Shown here piece by piece: positions 10,332 through 34,118 of a stretch of 34,777 bases of DNA. Numbering within the stretch: position 1 is the first letter of the stretch; every line of letters begins with the position of its first letter. Both the position numbers and the translations under genes were made by a program. The notes under the pieces are model-generated. The model searched no databases and was not told the DNA's origin. It was given only the letters and a program-made list of their open reading frames with translations. Origin of the DNA: an uncultured Candidatus Actinomarina sp. (GTDB lineage: Bacteria; Actinomycetota; Acidimicrobiia; Actinomarinales; Actinomarinaceae); contig CACOKA010000001.1 in NCBI GenBank assembly GCA_902627635.1, positions 1 through 34,777 on the forward strand, read 5' to 3'.

Positions 10332-10333
10332 TT

Positions 10334-22544: not shown

Positions 22545-23558
22545 ATGGTTGAAAATTTAGAAAATTTGTTAACTTTTCTGAATAATTTAGATTATTTAGA
22601 CATATTCATATATATATTTATTGTTTATCTTATTTATTTCGGATGGAAAAAAGGCTCTTTATTAATTATTTATTATTTGATAACTTTTCTTATATCAATC
22701 TATTTAAGTTTTACTTATTCCTTTTCGATTGGTGAATATATAAGTGGCTGGCTAAATTCCAATCAGCAAACTTCACAAATTTTTGCAGGCGTCGCAATAT
22801 TTATTACAATCTTGACATTGAGTTCGATTTTTCAAAATTTAATTTACAGTGAAGGATCTAAAAAAGATATAGGAAATAAGTTACTGGGTAGCATTACCTC
22901 TATTGTTTTGAGCAATTTAGTTCTTACATTTATGTTTACAATTTTATCTCTTCTTTCCTTGCCAAAATATGTACAAGAAAGTATTGATCAGTCCAATATT
23001 GTATCGTTTTATCTAAATTCTGAAGGAGTACCCCAACAAACACTCGAAGTCATTACAGGAACAGATTTATTAAAAGTTACTTCAAGAATAAAGGAACTGA
23101 CAGGCAGCACCTCTATTTCGTTAGATGAATCAGGATGTCTTGAAATACCTTCTTTTACTCAATCAAAATTAATTTCCAAAACAAGTGAAACTAATGAGTT
23201 GTTTGAAATGGTTAATATCGAAAGAATAAATGTAAATTCTGATCCCTTAGAGTTCTCTCAAACATTATCGAATATTGCAGAAAACTATGCAAAAAAAATG
23301 TATACAGAGGGTTTTTGGTGTCACAAAGATCCAAACAATGGATATTTAGTTACTGAAAGACTTTTAGAAGTTGGTTATCCACCTCCAAAATTTATTGGTG
23401 AAAATTTAGCAATGGCATCAACAATTTATTCTGGTCATCAAAGCCTAATGTATTCTCAATCCCATAGAGCGACAATAATAGATAATGAATTTAAACGAAT
23501 TGGTATTGGAATAGTGTCTGGTCCGAATGGTTTAATTATTGTTCAAATATTTGCATGA
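22545..23558 (+). CDS. CvpA-like membrane domain fused to an external CAP (SCP/YkwD-type) domain
   Basis: Function unknown, architecture clear. Residues 16-135 form four hydrophobic segments of CvpA type (start IYIFIVYLIYFGWKKGSLL). A linker of about 80 residues follows. From about residue 215 there is a CAP domain: FEMVNIERINVNSDPLEFSQTLSNIAENYA, MYTEGFWCHKD with candidate active-site His260, GENLAM with Glu287, SHRATI with His308, and the end FKRIGIGIVSGPNG. Two cysteines, Cys198 in the linker and Cys259 next to His260, could form a disulfide outside the cell. The design recalls mycobacterial MarP, where a CvpA-type membrane domain carries an external protease, but here the external module is CAP. 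No Shine-Dalgarno. It overlaps the next gene as ATGA. Confidence 0.82.
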   Translation: MVENLENLLTFLNNLDYLDIFIYIFIVYLIYFGWKKGSLLIIYYLITFLISIYLSFTYSFSIGEYISGWLNSNQQTSQIFAGVAIFITILTLSSIFQNLIYSEGSKKDIGNKLLGSITSIVLSNLVLTFMFTILSLLSLPKYVQESIDQSNIVSFYLNSEGVPQQTLEVITGTDLLKVTSRIKELTGSTSISLDESGCLEIPSFTQSKLISKTSETNELFEMVNIERINVNSDPLEFSQTLSNIAENYAKKMYTEGFWCHKDPNNGYLVTERLLEVGYPPPKFIGENLAMASTIYSGHQSLMYSQSHRATIIDNEFKRIGIGIVSGPNGLIIVQIFA

Positions 23559-25128: not shown

Positions 25129-25773
25129 TTATTTGACTGCTTTAAGAACGGGTCTTTCTAAGTAGTAGCTGAGTATTTGTAATTCTTGTGAAAGGTCGAC
25201 AGATCTAATTTGAACATCTGGAATATTTTTTAATAATACTGGAGCGAAATTTAAAATTGACTTTACCCCACAGTCGACCAACTGATCTGCAATTTCTTGA
25301 GCAACTTTTCCAGGTGTTGCAATAATGCCAATTGCAACATTGTACTTTTCACAAACAGTTTTAATATCAGATATGGGTTTTACTACAAGGCCAGCTATTT
25401 GTTTACTTATTTTTTTTGGATCATCATCAAATAATCCCACAACACCAAATCCGCGTTCTTGAAATCCTCCATAATGTGCAAGTGCTGATCCAAGGTTACC
25501 AACTCCAACTATTACTGCGCTCCATCCCTCGACCAAACCAAGTTCTAATTGAATCTGATTTCTCAATGTTGAAATATCATATCCTACGCCTCTAGTTCCT
25601 AGTGTGCCTAAATATGATAAATCTCTACGAACTTGAGCATCATTTACTTTTGCAATTTCTGCTAATTTTTTAGAAGAAATTCCAATATTTTGGTCATCAA
25701 TTTGTTCTAAGCATTGAAGATATAGAGGCAGCCTTTTTACTGTTGCCGGTGGTATATTGCTATTTTCTTTCAC
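25129..25773 (-). CDS. rex: Redox-sensing transcriptional repressor Rex
   Basis: Rex senses the NADH/NAD+ ratio: NADH binding releases it from DNA, derepressing respiratory genes. The N-terminal winged helix (IPPATVKRLPLYLQCLEQI, ISSKKLAEIAKVNDAQVRRDLSYLG) contains the QVRRDLS recognition-helix motif. The Rossmann domain starts at AVIVGVGNLGSALAHY (GxGxxG), and the C-terminal swapped helix is LSQELQILSYYLER. I chose the GTG at 25773 because it leaves the usual six residues before the conserved IPxATxKRL; the frame also extends to a TTG at 25794. It lies divergently from the geranylgeranyl reductase gene and two genes from nuoA, whose leader holds a perfect Rex operator. I saw no operator in its own upstream region. 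Confidence 0.96.
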   Translation of the reverse strand: MKENSNIPPATVKRLPLYLQCLEQIDDQNIGISSKKLAEIAKVNDAQVRRDLSYLGTLGTRGVGYDISTLRNQIQLELGLVEGWSAVIVGVGNLGSALAHYGGFQERGFGVVGLFDDDPKKISKQIAGLVVKPISDIKTVCEKYNVAIGIIATPGKVAQEIADQLVDCGVKSILNFAPVLLKNIPDVQIRSVDLSQELQILSYYLERPVLKAVK

Positions 25774-25885
25774 TAATGCACAATCTAATAACAATTTAAA
25801 AATAAGGTAAATTACATTAAAAATATTTTATTCTTACTTAAATTTATGATTTATTAATAAATAAGGTATTTTTAGGTCATAAACA

Positions 25886-27175
25886 ATGATAAATAAGGAA
25901 CTATTCGATGTTTTAATTGTAGGGGCAGGTCCCTCTGGATCTAATACTGCAATTTCTTACAAAAATTTAAATCCTGATTTAAAAGTTGGAATTATTGACA
26001 AAGCTATTTTTCCAAGAGATAAATCTTGTGGTGATGCAATTGGTCCCGGGGTAATTAATGCTTTAAAAAGATTTAACAATGAGCATATACTGGAGGGTGA
26101 ACCCGAGGTTATCTCAACATCTTTATTTGGCCCCGATAATATAGGAATCCAAAATTATATTCCAAAAGTTAAAAACAAAGATGACTCTGTTGTTTATGTT
26201 ATTCCGAGATACGAACTTGATAATAGAATTTTTGATATTGCTAAAAATCTCAATGTCCACTCATTTGAAGGTGTAAGATATTTGAATTATGAGCAAACTG
26301 AAGATGAGAATATCTTAAAAGTAGAGATTGAGAATAGTAACAAAGAAAGAAACTTTTTATTCACAAAGCTGTTGGTAGGAGCAGATGGCGCAAATTCAAG
26401 AGTTAGAAAAAGTTTAGATCTAAAACAAAATAATGACATACACAAAGCAATTGCTATAAGAGCCTATATTGACAGTCCAAATTATTTAGAAATATTTAAA
26501 GAAAGAACACTTATGTTTGAAATTAATGTTTCAGCATTAAAAGGATACGCTTGGGCATTCCCTAGTAAAGGGAATTTAATAAATATTGGTATTGGTATGC
26601 CTTTAAATTTATTTAAAAAGGACAATATGGATATAAATGACATGCTTGATAGTTTTGTAACGACATTGGAATCAAAAGGTGTCATCGTTGAAAACTTGAG
26701 AATGGAAAAAAGTTATATGCTTCCTTTTGCTTCTTATAGACCAAAACTTTCACATGATAAAGTAGCTCTTGTTGGAGATGCTGGTTCAATGATAAATCCT
26801 ATGAGTGGGGAGGGGATTTTTTATGGCATGGAGGCAGGTTATTTACTTGCTAAAGAGACATTTGGTTCATTGAATTCAAATAAACAAAATAATTTAAATA
26901 ATAATTTAAAAAAATATGAGAAAGCTTTAAACAAAAGATTTGGAATGCATTTTCTTAGCTGTACGGTTGCTCGACTTGTTTTACAAAGTCCTTTTATGAC
27001 AAAAAGATTACTCAGAATTGCATCAGTGGATAAAAACACTATTAATTTTGTAGTTGAGCTGTTATTCGATGAGGCTAGATTGACGATTAAAGAAACTTTC
27101 TCGTTGGCTTTTAAATTTATTTTACCCTTTAAAACACTGCGGTTTTTCAATAAATCTCCTGCCTTTTCCTTGTAG
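25886..27175 (+). CDS. Geranylgeranyl reductase-family FAD oxidoreductase (MenJ-like)
   Basis: FAD-dependent enzyme that reduces isoprenoid double bonds. Dinucleotide motif VGAGPSGSN (residues 12-20), second FAD motif LVGADGANSRVRKSL (about 165), and the GD motif VALVGDAGSMINPMSGEGIFYGMEAG (about 297-322). The whole is 429 aa, normal for the family. In actinobacteria a reductase of this group often precedes nuo genes, and the mycobacterial homologue MenJ partly saturates the menaquinone side chain; the same role is inferred here, with archaeal-type lipid or carotenoid reduction as alternatives. The 91-base gap to rex contains the 9-base direct repeat AATAAGGTA (25801-25809 and 25860-25868). 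It ends 67 bases before nuoA. Confidence 0.86.
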   Translation: MINKELFDVLIVGAGPSGSNTAISYKNLNPDLKVGIIDKAIFPRDKSCGDAIGPGVINALKRFNNEHILEGEPEVISTSLFGPDNIGIQNYIPKVKNKDDSVVYVIPRYELDNRIFDIAKNLNVHSFEGVRYLNYEQTEDENILKVEIENSNKERNFLFTKLLVGADGANSRVRKSLDLKQNNDIHKAIAIRAYIDSPNYLEIFKERTLMFEINVSALKGYAWAFPSKGNLINIGIGMPLNLFKKDNMDINDMLDSFVTTLESKGVIVENLRMEKSYMLPFASYRPKLSHDKVALVGDAGSMINPMSGEGIFYGMEAGYLLAKETFGSLNSNKQNNLNNNLKKYEKALNKRFGMHFLSCTVARLVLQSPFMTKRLLRIASVDKNTINFVVELLFDEARLTIKETFSLAFKFILPFKTLRFFNKSPAFSL

Positions 27176-27211
27176 CAAAAAGCTAGATCAGTACTAAAAT
27201 AGAACGATACA

Positions 27212-27229
27212 TTGTGAAATATTTCACAA
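27212..27229. promoter_or_regulatory. Perfect Rex operator upstream of nuoA
   Basis: TTGTGAAATATTTCACAA is an exact 18-bp palindrome matching the Rex operator form TTGTGAA-N4-TTCACAA in every fixed position. It lies 13 bases before the nuoA start codon, between a TAAAAT -10-like box (27195-27200) and the ribosome-binding site. Bound Rex would block transcription of nuo when NADH is scarce. With a rex gene two genes away this is strong evidence for direct control. Confidence 0.93.
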
Positions 27230-27231
27230 AT

Positions 27232-27240
27232 AGGGAGGGA
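27232..27240 (+). promoter_or_regulatory. Strong ribosome-binding site that fixes the nuoA GTG start
   Basis: AGGGAGGGA lies two bases before GTG 27243 and selects it. The ATG at 27241 is immediately followed by TGA and cannot be used. This is one of the few strong Shine-Dalgarno sites in the window, and it heads the whole nuo operon. Confidence 0.7.
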
Positions 27241-27242
27241 AT

Positions 27243-27653
27243 GTGATTAATTGGTTACCAATTTTGGTAATGCTATTTATTGGCATAGGTTTTGCAATTG
27301 CGTCACTTGGAGTTAGTTATCTATTATCACCTAAAAACCCTACACCTGAAAAATTAACACCTTATGAGTCTGGTATTTTTCCTGAAGAAGAGCCATCACA
27401 AAGATTTCCAGTCAAATTTTATATGGTTGCAATGTTGTATATAGTTTTTGATATTGAAATAATATTTCTTCTGGCATGGGCTACGCGATTTGATAAGTTG
27501 GGTTGGTATGGAATAATTGTTATTTTCATATTTACATTTTTTGTACTTGAGACTCTATATTACGTTTGGAAAAGAAATGTTCTTGACTGGAATGTACCGA
27601 GAAGACAGAGATATCACGAACCTGTCTCAAATTATGAGGGAGTTAATAAATAA
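27243..27653 (+). CDS. nuoA: NADH-quinone oxidoreductase subunit A
   Basis: Small membrane subunit of complex I (ND3-like) at the junction of membrane arm and quinone site. Three membrane helices (about residues 5-26, 63-83 and 87-107) are present. The conserved loop [20 protein letters not shown] lacks the mitochondrial-type Cys, as usual in bacteria. [23 protein letters not shown] is the family signature. The protein is 136 aa. The GTG start is fixed by the upstream ribosome-binding site. It is first of nuoABCDEFGH and overlaps nuoB by one base (TAATG). Confidence 0.96.
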
Positions 27654-28114
27654 TGTTTTCACCTGATAATATCTTTACTACAACAATCGATAAAGCCGTA
27701 CGTTGGTCACGAACTCAATCCATGTGGCCCGTAACTTTTGGTCTTGCATGTTGTGCTATCGAAATGATGGCAGCAGGGTCGGCAAAATATGATTTAGCTC
27801 GATATGGAATGGAAGTATTCAGAGCGTCACCAAGACAGGCTGATTTGATGATAGTTGCTGGTAGAGTCTCTCAAAAGATGGCACCTGTTCTAAGACAAGT
27901 TTATGATCAAATGGCCGAGCCAAAATGGGTAATTGCAATGGGAGCTTGTTCTTCAACTGGGGGAATGTTTAATAATTATGCCCTTGTACAGGGTGTGGAC
28001 CACATAGTTCCTGTTGATATATATGTACCGGGATGTCCACCGGGACCACAGTCACTAATGCATGGGATCTTAACACTTCATCAAAAAATCATGGATAGAG
28101 AGATAAATAGATAA
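27653..28114 (+). CDS. nuoB: NADH-quinone oxidoreductase subunit B
   Basis: Carries cluster N2, the [4Fe-4S] centre that passes electrons to quinone. All four ligands are visible: the tandem Cys33-Cys34 (LACCAIEMM), Cys99 (GACSSTGG) and Cys128 (VPGCPPGP). The quinone-site segment [28 protein letters not shown] is intact. At 153 aa it is slightly short, mainly through compact termini. It overlaps nuoA and nuoC by one base each (TAATG), indicating translational coupling of equimolar subunits. Confidence 0.97.
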
Positions 28115-28521
28115 TGATAGAAAATTTGCATGTAACAATTGAAGATTATTTTCAAAAAGTCGAAGAATTGAAAAACGATGGATATGAAATGATGGTTGAT
28201 TTAACTGCTATCGATTGGTTTAGAAAAAAAGATCCTAGATTTGAGGTAGTTGTAAATTTTCTCTCTGTTTCAAAAAATAAAAGAATTTCGATCAAAGTCA
28301 AATTGAATGACGATTTAAGAATTCCTTCAATAACGAGTCTTTATCCAAGTGCAAATTTTTATGAAAGAGAAGTATTCGATATGTTTGGAATAAACTTTGA
28401 AAACCACCCTGATTTAACAAGAATTCTTATGCCTGATGATTGGGTTGGGTACCCATTAAGAAAAGATTATGGGACTGGAAGAATACCAGTCCAATTTAAA
28501 AATGCACCAAAGGTTGATTGA
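28114..28521 (+). CDS. nuoC: NADH-quinone oxidoreductase subunit C, compact form
   Basis: Structural 30-kDa-type subunit of the peripheral arm. The conserved core is present: [23 protein letters not shown] and the signature [38 protein letters not shown]. At 135 aa it lacks much of the N-terminal portion found in stand-alone NuoC proteins (about 160-240 aa). The upstream region is nuoB coding sequence, so the short form is not a start error. It is separate from nuoD, not a NuoCD fusion. Overlaps nuoB by one base and abuts nuoD. Confidence 0.94.
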
Positions 28522-28523
28522 TA

Positions 28524-29879
28524 ATGGAAGAAAATAACGACACTATAAAAGACATAGATCTTTGGGCTACTAACTCAGAAGAAGGTGGATGGAACATCTC
28601 CTCAACTGACGAAGGTTCGCAAAAAATGTTAGAACAAGAAGATGAAGTAACTACAAAAATTCAAATGGGTTCTGAAGTTATAGATGATTATTTTATAGAA
28701 GATGATATTTCTGATGATGAAAGAATGATTTTAAATATGGGACCTCAACATCCATCAACTCATGGCGTTTTAAGATTACAAGTTGAACTTGAAGGAGAAG
28801 TAGTAAGAAGAGTACAACCTGTAATTGGGTATCTTCATACTGGGATGGAAAAAACAGGAGAGGAATTAAATTACTTTCAGGGACCCACTAACACAACAAG
28901 AATGGATTATCTATCTCCCTTTTTTAATGAACTTGTTTTTTCATTAGCAACTGAAAAACTCTTAGGTATTGAAGTTCCAGATAGAGCTTCAACTATAAGA
29001 ATATTAATGACTGAACTAAATCGAATTTCCTCACACCTTGTTGCATTAGCAACTGGAGGAATGGATATAGGGGCATTATCAATGATGATTTTTGGATTTA
29101 GAGAACGAGAATTAATTCTAGATTTTTTTGAAAAGACAACTGGACTACGTATGAATCATAACTTTATAAGGCCAGGTGGTGTAGCAGCCGACTTACCAGA
29201 CAATTGGCAAAAAGACATTGAAGAGATATTGAAAGTCATACCTAAAAAACTAAAAGATTATGACGAAATGCTATTAGATAATCCGATCTGGCAAGGAAGA
29301 CTAAAGAATGTTGGAATTTTAACTACTGAAGAATGTTTTGCATACGGTATAACTGGTCCAAGTCTTAGAGCTAGCGGATATGCCTGGGACTTAAGAAAAA
29401 TGCAACCATACTCAGGTATAGATAAATATGAATTTGATATACCTGTTTTTGAAGAAGGAGATGTTTTTGCAAGATGGAGAATTAAAGTCTTAGAAATTTT
29501 TGAAAGCTTAAAAATTGTTGAACAAGCTATGGGGAATATGCCAAAGGGACCATATAAAATTCAAGATAAAAAAATTACACCTCCACCCAGAAAAAGACTA
29601 GACGAATCAATGGAGGCTTTGATCCATCATTTTAAAATATATACAGAAGGATTCAAAGTTCCAGAGGGAGAAGTTTATACAACAGTCGAGTCGCCAAGAG
29701 GTGAGCTTGGTTGCTTTATTGTTTCTGATGGATCATCAAAACCATATAGAATGCATGTAAGAGGACCTTCTTTCTGTAATCTCCAAGCTTTACCAGTAGT
29801 AATGTCTGACAGCCCAATTGCAGATGCAGTTGCAGCAATAGCCTCATTGGATCCAGTTTTAGGAGATGTTGACAGATGA
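28524..29879 (+). CDS. nuoD: NADH-quinone oxidoreductase subunit D
   Basis: 49-kDa-type subunit that forms the quinone-binding cavity with NuoB. The core begins at NMGPQHPSTHGVLRL (about residue 72), with the quinone-site His and the following VIGYLHTGMEKTGE. Also present are LNRISSHLVALATGGMDIGA, the FNFIRPGG-like HNFIRPGGVAADLP and the C-terminal SLDPVLGDVDR. About 70 N-terminal residues are an acidic, low-complexity extension (many Asp/Glu), like but longer than the acidic leader in other actinobacterial NuoD. I chose the ATG at 28524 rather than the TTG at 28518, which overlaps the nuoC stop. It overlaps nuoE by 4 bases (ATGA). Confidence 0.96.
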   Translation: MEENNDTIKDIDLWATNSEEGGWNISSTDEGSQKMLEQEDEVTTKIQMGSEVIDDYFIEDDISDDERMILNMGPQHPSTHGVLRLQVELEGEVVRRVQPVIGYLHTGMEKTGEELNYFQGPTNTTRMDYLSPFFNELVFSLATEKLLGIEVPDRASTIRILMTELNRISSHLVALATGGMDIGALSMMIFGFRERELILDFFEKTTGLRMNHNFIRPGGVAADLPDNWQKDIEEILKVIPKKLKDYDEMLLDNPIWQGRLKNVGILTTEECFAYGITGPSLRASGYAWDLRKMQPYSGIDKYEFDIPVFEEGDVFARWRIKVLEIFESLKIVEQAMGNMPKGPYKIQDKKITPPPRKRLDESMEALIHHFKIYTEGFKVPEGEVYTTVESPRGELGCFIVSDGSSKPYRMHVRGPSFCNLQALPVVMSDSPIADAVAAIASLDPVLGDVDR

Positions 29880-30493
29880 GCTGGGAAAAAGAATTGGTAG
29901 AAAAAGCAAATGAAATTATTGAATTATATCCCGAAAAGAGATCAGCTCTGGGACCACTTCTATATTTAGCCCAAGAAAAAGATGGTCATATATCAAATGA
30001 TTCAATTGTAGAAATTAGTAACCTTATTGGAATTACTGAAGTTCAAGTAAAATCAGTTGCTTCTTTTTACTCCATGTATAAAGAAGAACAAACTGGAAAA
30101 TACTTACTTAGTGTTTGTAAATCGATTTCTTGCGAAATAAATGACTCAAGAAGTGTTATTAATTCAGTAAAAGATTTTACTGGATTAGAAAATTATGAAA
30201 CTGATACCGATAAGGTTTTCACTTTTGAAGAAGTTGAGTGTATTGGAGCATGCGGTGGAGCTCCAGCTGTTCAGGTAAATTATGAAACAGTTGAAGGATT
30301 GACACCTGAAAAATCAATCCAAATGTGTGAATGGCTTAAAGAAGAGAGACCTAACGTAATTGTTGCTGAAGAGCTACAAGATAAATTTGGAGGTATCAAA
30401 TCATTCGATTGGGCCATTAAAGACAATACTGGATCATCGTATTCAGTTCCAGGCTTTCAGAACATTGGAACTGCAAAGGAAAAAAGCAAATGA
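29876..30493 (+). CDS. nuoE: NADH-quinone oxidoreductase subunit E
   Basis: 24-kDa-type subunit with the thioredoxin-like fold carrying [2Fe-2S] cluster N1a. Ligands are Cys81 and Cys86 (C-x4-C) and Cys122 and Cys126 (C-x3-C, ECIGACGGAP). The N-terminal helical domain (YPEKRSALGPLLYLAQEKDGHIS) is typical. The last 50 or so residues form a tail without known motifs, giving 205 aa. Together with NuoF and NuoG it forms the NADH-oxidising module, so this organism has a complete N-module rather than a ferredoxin-type complex I. ATGA overlaps on both sides. Confidence 0.96.
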   Translation: MSWEKELVEKANEIIELYPEKRSALGPLLYLAQEKDGHISNDSIVEISNLIGITEVQVKSVASFYSMYKEEQTGKYLLSVCKSISCEINDSRSVINSVKDFTGLENYETDTDKVFTFEEVECIGACGGAPAVQVNYETVEGLTPEKSIQMCEWLKEERPNVIVAEELQDKFGGIKSFDWAIKDNTGSSYSVPGFQNIGTAKEKSK

Positions 30494-31785
30494 AAGAAAC
30501 ATTATTACTTACAAAGCATATGCGTGAATTTCCTGAAAACAGTCATAAGCTTGACGTTTTTGAAAAAAACAATGGTTACAGTGCTTTAAAAAAAGTCCTG
30601 AAAGATAATGATCCTGAAAGTGTTATTAATGAAATTAAGGATTCAAACATCAGAGGCCGTGGGGGTGCCGGTTTCCCAACAGGAGTTAAGTGGGGATTTC
30701 TAGCTGAAGATGAAGATAGATACCTCGTAATTAATGGTGATGAATCCGAACCAGGAACTTTTAAAGATAGAATTTTACTTGAAAGGGATCCACACCAATT
30801 AATTGAGGGTGTAGCAATCACATGTTTTGCCTCAAATATCAAAAAAGCATTTATCTATATTAGAGGTGAATATGCAAAACCAGCAAGAAGAGTACAAGAT
30901 GCAGTTGAACAAGCTTATGAAAAAGGTTATCTAGGCAAGAACATTTTAGGAACAAATTTCTCTTTAGATGTTGTAGTACATCTTGGTGCAGGGGCCTATA
31001 TATGCGGTGAAGAGACAGCTCTTTTAAATTCATTAGAGGGTAGAAGAGGAGAGCCAAGACTAAAACCTCCTTATTTTCCAGCAGTAATGGGTTTGTACAA
31101 TAAGCCAACTCTTGTAAATAATGTAGAAACAATATCTTCAGTGCCTTGGATTATCAATAATTCAGGTAAGGAGTATTCAAAATTAGGAGTTGAGGGCTCA
31201 ACTGGTACTAGAATTTTTAGCTTATCGGGACATGTAAATAACCCTGGAAATTTTGAAATAGAAATGGGTAAAACCTTTGAAGAATTTATATACACATTTG
31301 GTAATGGTATAAAAAATAATAAAAGTGTTAAAGCATACATCCCAGGAGGTGCATCTGCTCCATGGTTTACTGGCGATCAATTGGATATAAAAATGACCAT
31401 TGATGATGTTGCAAATGCTGGATCTATGCTGGGTTCCGGGGCTGTTGTTGTTATGGATGAAAACACAAATTTAGTTTATGCAGCAAAAAGTATTGTCAGT
31501 TTCTTTGCACACGAATCTTGTGGTCAGTGTACTCCTTGTAGAGAGGGCACTACGTGGCTGGAAATGATATTAGACAGAATAGCTAGTGGTAGGGGTCGAT
31601 TATCTGACATAAGTTTATTAATTGATATTTGCGATAACATATCACCTGGCCTTGCATGGCCACCAAAAATGACAACAATATGTCCATTAGGCCCTTCAGC
31701 GGTATCTCCAATTACATCATTATTAAATAACTTTTCAGATGAAATTACAAACATGCTTCCAACAAAAATTCCCATTACTCAATGA
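30490..31785 (+). CDS. nuoF: NADH-quinone oxidoreductase subunit F
   Basis: 51-kDa-type subunit that binds FMN and NADH and carries cluster N3. Visible are the nucleotide/FMN motif RGRGGAGFPTGVKWGF (about 54-69), the second FMN region GAGAYICGEETALLNSLEGRRGEPR, and the N3 ligands ESCGQCTPCREG (three Cys, about 343-349) with a fourth Cys at about 398 (ICPLGPSAV). At 431 aa it is complete. ATGA overlaps with nuoE and nuoG. The presence of all ligands argues for an active NADH dehydrogenase. Confidence 0.97.
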   Translation: MKETLLLTKHMREFPENSHKLDVFEKNNGYSALKKVLKDNDPESVINEIKDSNIRGRGGAGFPTGVKWGFLAEDEDRYLVINGDESEPGTFKDRILLERDPHQLIEGVAITCFASNIKKAFIYIRGEYAKPARRVQDAVEQAYEKGYLGKNILGTNFSLDVVVHLGAGAYICGEETALLNSLEGRRGEPRLKPPYFPAVMGLYNKPTLVNNVETISSVPWIINNSGKEYSKLGVEGSTGTRIFSLSGHVNNPGNFEIEMGKTFEEFIYTFGNGIKNNKSVKAYIPGGASAPWFTGDQLDIKMTIDDVANAGSMLGSGAVVVMDENTNLVYAAKSIVSFFAHESCGQCTPCREGTTWLEMILDRIASGRGRLSDISLLIDICDNISPGLAWPPKMTTICPLGPSAVSPITSLLNNFSDEITNMLPTKIPITQ

Positions 31786-34118
31786 CTGATCAAATTAAAA
31801 TAAACGTCAATGGTTCAGAAATAATTTCAGAACCTGACCAACTTATTATTGAAGCATGTGAAGATTCTGGTATTCATATACCAAGATTTTGCTGGCATAA
31901 AAGAATGGACCCTGTGGGAATGTGTCGTATGTGTTTGGTTGAAATCGAAACTCCTCGAGGTAAGGCTTTGGTTCCTTCTTGTACCACAAAGGTATCAGAA
32001 GATTTAGTTGTAGATACTGAATCTGATGTTGTAAAAAAAGCTCAAGAAGGAGTTTTAGAGTTTTTATTAATTAATCACCCTCTTGATTGTCCAGTTTGTG
32101 ATAAGGCCGGAGAATGTCCTTTACAGGATCAAACAATGGCTTATGGACCTGGTGAGTCACGATTTGTAGAAGATAAAAGACATTTTGAAAAACCTATTCC
32201 AATTTCAGAGATAATTTTACTTGATCGAGAAAGATGCATATTATGTGCTCGATGTACAAGGTTTTCTGATGAAATATCTGGAGATCCTTTGATCGAATTT
32301 ATTCAGAGAGGAAATAAAACACAAGTAAATACTTTTCCTGATGAACCATTTAGATCATATTTCTCTGGAAACACAGTACAAATTTGTCCAGTTGGGGCAC
32401 TCACATCTTCATCATATAGATTTAAAGCACGTCCATGGGATCTTAAAAAAGTTTCATCAACCTCAAATTGTTCATCAGTTGGGTGTTCAGTTGAATTAAA
32501 CGTATCACAGAACAAAATGTTAAGAATTTTAGGTGAGGATAACGAATATACAAACCAAGGATGGCTTTCTGACAAAGGCCGATACAACTTTGAGTATCTG
32601 CATTCAGAAAAGAGAATTCAATCACCATTATTAGTTAATAATCCAAGCAAAGAGTTAAGTGTAAATGAATCCATGGAAATAATTGGTGATCAAATTCATA
32701 CCGATATAGATACGAATATAAGTTTTATAATTGGGCACAATAGTACAAATGAAGAATACTTTGCATTGAATAGTTTTATAAATAGCCTTAACGAAAACAA
32801 ACAAGAAACATCAATCCAAGACTTAAATGTTTATATAAGCGATGATTATTTGCACGAAGGATATTTTGATGACAGCTACTCACTTGGACAAATTAAAGAT
32901 TTGGATTCAGCAGATACAATAATTTTATGGTCCCAAGATATCAAAGATAATTTACCTACATTGTATTTACGAATAAAACAAGCTGTTAAGAAGGGAAAAA
33001 AATTAATTATATTTGGTCATACCAACACAGCTATGAAAAATCTTTCAGAAGAGTACTTTGGGGAAGAAGTAGTGTCTAAAAATTTTGAATTTAACATTGA
33101 AATATCTGATATTCCAAACCTTTCAAGACTTATAAATGGTAAAGAAGTATTAGCAATTGTTGGCAAATCCTCACCTATTCAGAATATGGAACCAGTTTCA
33201 AAATTAATAAATCATTTGAATAAAAACTCAAATCTCAAAATTCTTAACTGCTTTGCAAAAGGAAATACATTCGGAGCCTTTCAAAATTTAGATCTAGTAA
33301 AAGGTATAAATGATTTTGTAGATGAATTCGATAATTCCAGAAAAAATTTGATATTTACCATAGGATCAAATCCAGTAAACAATTCAGTTTATAGTCAAAA
33401 AATTAAGAATCATTTGATAAGCGCTGATTATGTAGTTGCTCTAGATTTATTCAAAAACGAAACTACAGAATTGGCAGATATTATTCTTCCAACAACTTCC
33501 TTTACTGAAAAAGAAGGGACCTTTACCAATCTTGAAATGAGAACGTTGATGCAAAACAAAATACTACCTGCTCCAGGATTGTCTTTGAATGAATGGGAAT
33601 ACTGGGCAATGTTACTTGGTAAAATTGGTTTGGAACAATCTTACGATTCTGAAATTCAGTTAAATTCATTGTTGTGTGAAGGATATACGAATAAAGATAA
33701 TCTTCCATCTTTTGATAATTTAAATAAACCATCAAATCTAGATGGGATAATGAATTCAAAGCCAATCAAAATTGAAACAAAGAATAATAGATTAGAAAAT
33801 CTAGAAATATTGTTCGTACACAGACTTTACGGAGATACATCATCACAAATTAATTCTCCGTCCATATCGATGTTAGGTTCTGAACGGTTTATAGAAATGA
33901 ATTCAGCAACATTTTATGGATCCTATATGCTTATAAGCAATGTTGTTACTCTTTCACAGGATGATAATTCAATTCAGGTAAATGTTAATATAAACGATTC
34001 TCTTCCAGACAACTTGCTAGTTATCCCAATCAATAGAAGAGGTTTTCAAAATCTTGATCCTGAGAAAAAGGTTGAGTTAGAGGTAGCAAGGAGTAGGGAG
34101 CAATTAAGTGTCAGTTGA
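31782..34118 (+). CDS. nuoG: NADH-quinone oxidoreductase subunit G, lacking N7 cluster ligands
   Basis: 75-kDa-type subunit. N1b [2Fe-2S] ligands are Cys37, Cys48, Cys51 and Cys67. N5 uses His99, Cys103, Cys106 and Cys112, and N4 uses Cys152, Cys155, Cys158 and Cys202. A molybdopterin-oxidoreductase-like domain follows from about residue 220. There the fourth cluster site (N7), normally CxxCxxxC then a distant Cys, is degraded: STSNCSSVGC keeps only Cys230 and Cys235 in altered spacing, and the distal Cys is Ser263 (WLSDKGRY). The main electron wire is unaffected because N7 lies off the path. Most of the large C-terminal domain (about 280-778) is weakly conserved, as usual. ATGA overlap with nuoF; nuoH begins inside its last codons. 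Confidence 0.96.
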   Translation: MTDQIKINVNGSEIISEPDQLIIEACEDSGIHIPRFCWHKRMDPVGMCRMCLVEIETPRGKALVPSCTTKVSEDLVVDTESDVVKKAQEGVLEFLLINHPLDCPVCDKAGECPLQDQTMAYGPGESRFVEDKRHFEKPIPISEIILLDRERCILCARCTRFSDEISGDPLIEFIQRGNKTQVNTFPDEPFRSYFSGNTVQICPVGALTSSSYRFKARPWDLKKVSSTSNCSSVGCSVELNVSQNKMLRILGEDNEYTNQGWLSDKGRYNFEYLHSEKRIQSPLLVNNPSKELSVNESMEIIGDQIHTDIDTNISFIIGHNSTNEEYFALNSFINSLNENKQETSIQDLNVYISDDYLHEGYFDDSYSLGQIKDLDSADTIILWSQDIKDNLPTLYLRIKQAVKKGKKLIIFGHTNTAMKNLSEEYFGEEVVSKNFEFNIEISDIPNLSRLINGKEVLAIVGKSSPIQNMEPVSKLINHLNKNSNLKILNCFAKGNTFGAFQNLDLVKGINDFVDEFDNSRKNLIFTIGSNPVNNSVYSQKIKNHLISADYVVALDLFKNETTELADIILPTTSFTEKEGTFTNLEMRTLMQNKILPAPGLSLNEWEYWAMLLGKIGLEQSYDSEIQLNSLLCEGYTNKDNLPSFDNLNKPSNLDGIMNSKPIKIETKNNRLENLEILFVHRLYGDTSSQINSPSISMLGSERFIEMNSATFYGSYMLISNVVTLSQDDNSIQVNVNINDSLPDNLLVIPINRRGFQNLDPEKKVELEVARSREQLSVS

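Follow-up and report, generated by a model that had tools for sequence, protein, structure and literature searches.

A putative Rex operator before the complex I operon and a small candidate Rex regulon across Candidatus Actinomarina

Gene neighbourhood and nuoA operator

The window, by which we mean the whole 34,777-nt stretch of Candidatus Actinomarina DNA that was analysed, contains a divergent rex gene, a single intervening gene (ggr), and the beginning of an operon for NADH-type complex I that extends beyond the window end (Table 1). The original prediction had placed rex two genes from nuoA, and both its identity and its adjacency hold. The 221-aa rex product scores 284 bits against the NCBIfam model NF003992 (cut-off 226), has the winged-helix N-terminal and C-terminal Rossmann domains that define the Rex family, and matches solved Rex structures with E-values down to 8e-48; the gene is next but one upstream of nuoA. 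The same prediction put a menaquinone-modifying enzyme between the two. The ggr product does fall into the geranylgeranyl reductase family, but on the MenJ model NF045655 it reaches 117.8 against a cut-off of 700, and for this reason a menaquinone role is best described as plausible. The nuoA product scores under the cut-off of the NCBIfam NuoA models and is 79-95% identical to its relatives, the closest named of which come from Ca. Actinomarina single-cell genomes.

Two smaller features of the window deserve mention. The TTG start of rex (25760-25794) may be too early, since the alignments with relatives do not begin until residue 2 or 3, and seven codons into the gene a GTG adjoins a TTGTGCA half-site. 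Elsewhere, at 22545-23558, a CvpA-like membrane domain is fused with a CAP/YkwD-like domain.

Table 1. Features of the rex-nuo region, in window coordinates
Feature	Position	Strand	Basis
rex, redox-sensing repressor, divergent from ggr	25129..25794	-	NF003992, PF06971, PF02629, solved Rex structures
ggr, geranylgeranyl reductase family flavoprotein, in the rex-nuoA interval	25886..27175	+	TIGR02032, 166.3 bits (cut-off 158.8)
-10-like hexamer TAAAAT of the nuoA promoter; no clear -35	27195..27200	+	sequence; TANAAT here in most relatives
predicted Rex operator TTGTGAAATATTTCACAA, upstream of nuoA	27212..27229	.	exact match; conserved in relatives
Shine-Dalgarno-like GGGAGGG of nuoA	27233..27239	+	sequence; purine-rich stretch kept in relatives
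nuoA, first gene of the NADH-type complex I operon, GTG start	27243..27653	+	PF00507, 108.9 bits
nuoB	27653..28114	+	NCBIfam
nuoB and further nuo genes to a NuoG-like ORF (31782-34118), including NuoE- and NuoF-like ORFs	27653..34118	+	beyond nuoB, gene order and ORF translations

The element between the -10-like box and the nuoA start codon had been described as an exact 18-bp Rex palindrome 13 bases before the gene, and an exact-match scan of the window bears this out. It is identical to its own reverse complement and agrees with the consensus TTGTGAAN4TTCACAA without a mismatch, beginning 11 nt 3' of the TAAAAT hexamer and ending 13 nt before the GTG. The claim that the window holds no second operator also stands, as the sole further match with up to three mismatches, at position 10332, has all three. 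We infer from the sequence that nuoA transcription starts at about 27206-27208, which would put the operator at about +5 to +23.

Conservation within Actinomarina

Comparison across relatives and a genome-wide look for further sites had both been proposed as checks on the operator, and each came out in its favour. The species collection supplied 17 Actinomarina nuoA loci, and in every one the operator is perfect and close before nuoA. Of 30 loci retrieved around rex, 29 likewise have it in perfect form, in the order rex-ggr-operator, the 30th stopping at a contig edge. Among 33 distinct nuoA promoters, 16 of the 18 operator columns are invariant (TTGTGAAA-NN-TTTCACAA) while the 70 columns upstream drift to a mean conservation of 0.63; these promoters were gathered by demanding an exact site, and the independent counts are the 17/17 and 29/30 just given. 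Such near-perfect conservation suggests strong selection on the nuoA operator.

The draft genome from which the window comes (812,883 bp in 41 contigs, 77% complete) carries three exact sites and one site with a single mismatch, against no exact site for the reversed control. Of the exact sites, one belongs to nuoA, one to a WhiB-like gene and one to an operon for a copper P-type ATPase; the 1-mismatch site precedes menA. All 42 genomes of the family have between one and five exact sites, and the reversed control gives none in any of them. We detected rex in 38 of these genomes, in the fixed order rex-ggr-operator-nuoA, and failed to detect it in four; all are drafts.

A small putative regulon

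In nine better-assembled genomes, 38 of the 41 sites with at most one mismatch precede five gene sets: nuo, the WhiB-like regulator, menA-menG, the copper P-type ATPase operon, and a proton-pumping rhodopsin. The other three, all in one genome (G033) and each with one mismatch, fall inside genes, and we regard them as chance occurrences. The regulator had originally been pictured beside its target operon. The adjacency is real, but nuo is probably not its one target, as sites also stand at the WhiB-like, menA-menG and copper ATPase genes.

At the WhiB-family gene (PF02467) of the source genome, 13 nt separate the end of the site from the probable start codon, as at nuoA. This site is perfect wherever automatic placement of the gene succeeded; placement missed about half of the loci, and positions from other scans fill part of that gap. 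The copper operon consists of a gene for a 64-aa CxxC protein, then one for a CopZ-like chaperone, then the copper-type P-type ATPase, and its site is perfect in 30 of 30 cases. In the menA set, the gene for a UbiE/MenG-type methyltransferase comes after that for a PNPOx-UbiA (MenA-like) fusion; the site in front of them has one mismatch in 26 of 26 cases and in nearly all of these reads TTGTG[CT]ATTATTTCACAA.

The 64-aa CxxC protein (MTDGLKASQIKGG...; L168:7052-7246, contig C21 of the source genome), which heads the copper P-type ATPase operon behind its invariant site, has no Pfam match above cut-off and no NCBIfam match, and a second, diverged copy is found elsewhere in most genomes. The N-terminal pyridoxamine-phosphate-oxidase-like fusion of the MenA-like protein (L169:4074-5594, contig C5) is kept genus-wide. 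A sixth exact site, outside the five targets, occurs in two genomes (L405:4052-4069 in G011 and L406:3877-3894 in G016), and in G016 what may be an ORF of 31 codons, coding for a small membrane protein, comes after it.

Sites before the rhodopsin gene

The rhodopsin is of type 1 (PF01036). The region upstream of its gene was readable in 31 genomes, and the best site there has no mismatch in 4 of them, one in 10, two in 7, and at least three in 10. Nine of these last 10 belong, by rhodopsin identity, to the window's own sublineage, where the site is degenerate. The commonest form is TTGTGATNNNNTTCACAA, and its change is shared by the footprinted atpI site of Streptomyces avermitilis, TTGTGATACGGTTCACGA (PMC5355995). 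Three genomes (G004, G008 and G010) have two perfect sites 41 nt apart between divergent rhodopsin and photolyase genes, an arrangement given for the genus G4, which is thought to live deeper (PMC7771536). Because 400 kb of another genome (G035) contain a single site with at most two mismatches, and that one intragenic, sites in 21 of 31 short rhodopsin upstream regions are far above background. None with at most two mismatches was found near rhodopsins at 13 loci of other Acidimicrobiia, and the rhodopsin target is therefore Actinomarina-specific so far.

We think it somewhat probable that in many Ca. Actinomarina lineages Rex controls the MACR rhodopsin, a light-driven proton pump, alongside complex I and menaquinone synthesis, such that phototrophy and respiration would share a redox switch. 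If these sites work, they would explain in concrete, testable terms how light and respiration are balanced in a marine photoheterotroph. We found no published report of Rex sites before a proton-pumping rhodopsin among the open-licence papers searched; one match to proteorhodopsin and "transcriptional repressor Rex" was discarded as a paper on synthetic cells. As a separate observation, the rhodopsin upstream region of the window's sublineage has a TTTCACAA half-site and the sequence TGTGAA-CGT-TTCACA, a Rex-like pair whose spacer is 3 and not 4 (L188-L197).

Proposed mechanism and alternatives

We propose, with a probability of about 0.9, that Rex, encoded close by, uses the palindrome as its operator, providing NADH-responsive repression of nuo and of a small genus-wide regulon. 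This reading builds on the observed sites, their conservation and positions, on the presence of rex, and on the retention of most of its sensor residues. Points that weigh against it are the changes at Arg16 and Lys47 described below, the four draft genomes in which rex was not detected, the mismatch in the menA site and the degenerate rhodopsin site of the window's own sublineage. Characterised Rex proteins are DNA-bound at low NADH/NAD+ and released at high NADH (review PMC8063818), and by analogy Rex would bind the nuoA operator, respond to NADH and repress there. At low NADH/NAD+, a Rex dimer on the operator, just downstream of the predicted nuoA start, would block RNA polymerase. As NADH rises, NADH-bound Rex would change shape and leave the DNA, permitting expression of the NADH-oxidising complex I operon, which would in turn lower NADH and close a negative feedback loop. 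The same switch would act on the WhiB-like regulator, menA-menG, the CopZ/CopA-like operon and, in many lineages though not clearly in the window's, the rhodopsin. In other words, a shared target sequence at complex I, a few other energy genes and, in many relatives, a light-driven proton pump suggests one small redox switch for energy.

Other proteins or other uses of the same letters have to be considered. The CRP consensus agrees with the core letters of the operator, since TTGTGAAN4TTCACAA contains TGTGA-N6-TCACA, and the palindrome could in principle be a CRP/FNR/GlxR-type operator. We regard this as very improbable: the outer T/A and inner A/T positions do not vary at nuoA, although CRP sites leave them free, and the syntenic neighbour is rex. 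Moreover, 400 kb of G035, about a third of that genome, contain no TGTGA-N6-TCACA site, and a phmmer search with E. coli CRP as query returned no relative from those 400 kb, the window or the further loci that it covered, which makes an operator of this type unlikely. It is harder still to credit the palindrome to chance or to an RNA hairpin in the nuoA leader. As RNA it could form a short stem, but it is the letters themselves that are invariant, with no compensatory changes seen in the arms, and identical letters recur at four other promoters; the absence of the reversed pattern from 42 genomes had already excluded chance.

A more serious possibility, although still an unlikely one, is that Rex, though it occupies the site, does no more than fine-tune expression or hinder elongation as a weak roadblock, nuo being otherwise constitutive. 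The operator is downstream of the predicted transcription start, and an obligate aerobe is expected to need complex I all the time. Against this, the near-perfect conservation of the operator points to strong selection, and in S. avermitilis Rex represses cydA1 while bound downstream of the transcription start, where it protects -3 to +25, a placement comparable with that of the nuoA operator (PMC5355995). We retain NADH-responsive repression by Rex as the preferred reading.

Actinomarinales have been described as more streamlined than any other Actinobacteria, having few sigma factors and no two-component systems that could be identified (PMC7771536). A tight and near-perfect Rex regulon would show the link that such a streamlined cell keeps, namely that from NADH/NAD+ to the machinery of proton motive force. 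In Streptomyces, both nuo and a WhiB gene are already known to be controlled by Rex (PMC5355995). What appears unreported in the open-licence papers searched is a small, genus-wide and near-perfect putative regulon in a marine organism with a streamlined genome and, most notably, the rhodopsin sites.

Comparison with known Rex systems

In S. avermitilis, nuoA1-N1 and wblE are among the genes under Rex, so the original statement that Rex controls nuo in Streptomyces is correct (PMC5355995). The Actinomarina system resembles that of S. avermitilis and S. coelicolor in having TTGTGAAN4TTCACAA before nuoA-N, a WhiB-family target, and both variant half-sites, as the footprinted sites of S. avermitilis include TTGTGCA (found here at menA) and TTGTGAT (found here at the rhodopsin) (PMC5355995). 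However, Streptomyces autoregulates rex-hemACD and controls cydABCD, atp, hppA and ndh (PMC5355995), whereas Actinomarina lacks a rex site and has menA-menG, the CopA-like operon and, in other lineages than the window's, the rhodopsin as putative targets instead.

The gene order recalls the menG-operator-ggr-nuo cluster of Nocardiopsis, where ggr likewise stands directly before nuoA and the cluster contains an exact Rex site. In Nocardiopsis this site precedes ggr, behind a ubiE/menG-like gene and about 1.6-1.7 kb upstream of nuoA, whereas in Actinomarina it lies between ggr and nuoA, and menA-menG has its own site elsewhere. The Rex protein aligns in both domains with those of Thermus and Thermotoga (3IKT, 1XCB, 5ZZ5-5ZZ7), and the equivalents of Ala94, Tyr98 and Asp188 (T-Rex numbering) are kept. 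Unlike T-Rex, the Rex of the window has Gln for Arg16, a sensor residue like Tyr98 and Asp188, and Arg for Lys47; TmRex is likewise without the Arg16 of T-Rex.

Autoregulation, the second nuo cluster and other lineages

The original prediction noted that local autoregulation of rex seemed to be missing, and this suspicion is strengthened. None of 29 Actinomarina rex loci has an operator with at most two mismatches near rex, the best having 3-5, whereas 20 of 30 rex loci from outgroup Acidimicrobiia have a 2-mismatch operator-like site some 50-250 nt ahead of the rex match. Several of these outgroup sites have the form TTGTGCANNNNTTCTCAA; the rex site of S. avermitilis is TTGTGCACGCGTTCACAA (PMC5355995). 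Given this difference, local autoregulation seems to have been lost in Actinomarina. A TTGTGCA half-site remains at the start of rex in many Actinomarina loci, which suggests that the rex operator may have decayed.

The source genome also has a second nuo cluster without EFG (G000:C1:54016-63982), a type linked to coenzyme F420 (PMC7771536). The stretches read from this cluster contain no site with up to three mismatches, and the best match in its 300-nt upstream region has five. Because this EFG-less paralog is without a site, the operator marks the NADH-oxidising copy.

Rex itself is common outside the genus, scoring above the cut-off in 172 of 198 genomes of the class (Actinomarina included), and other families, too, have exact sites close to WhiB-like or YqeY-like genes. 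None of the other Acidimicrobiia loci examined has an exact site before nuoA. In records labelled Acidobacteria or Vicinamibacteria (L045, L048, L052, L053 and L067), 1-mismatch sites of the form TTG[CG]GAAANTCTTCACAA lie 23-114 nt before nuoA, and Rex control of nuo may thus be common there too.
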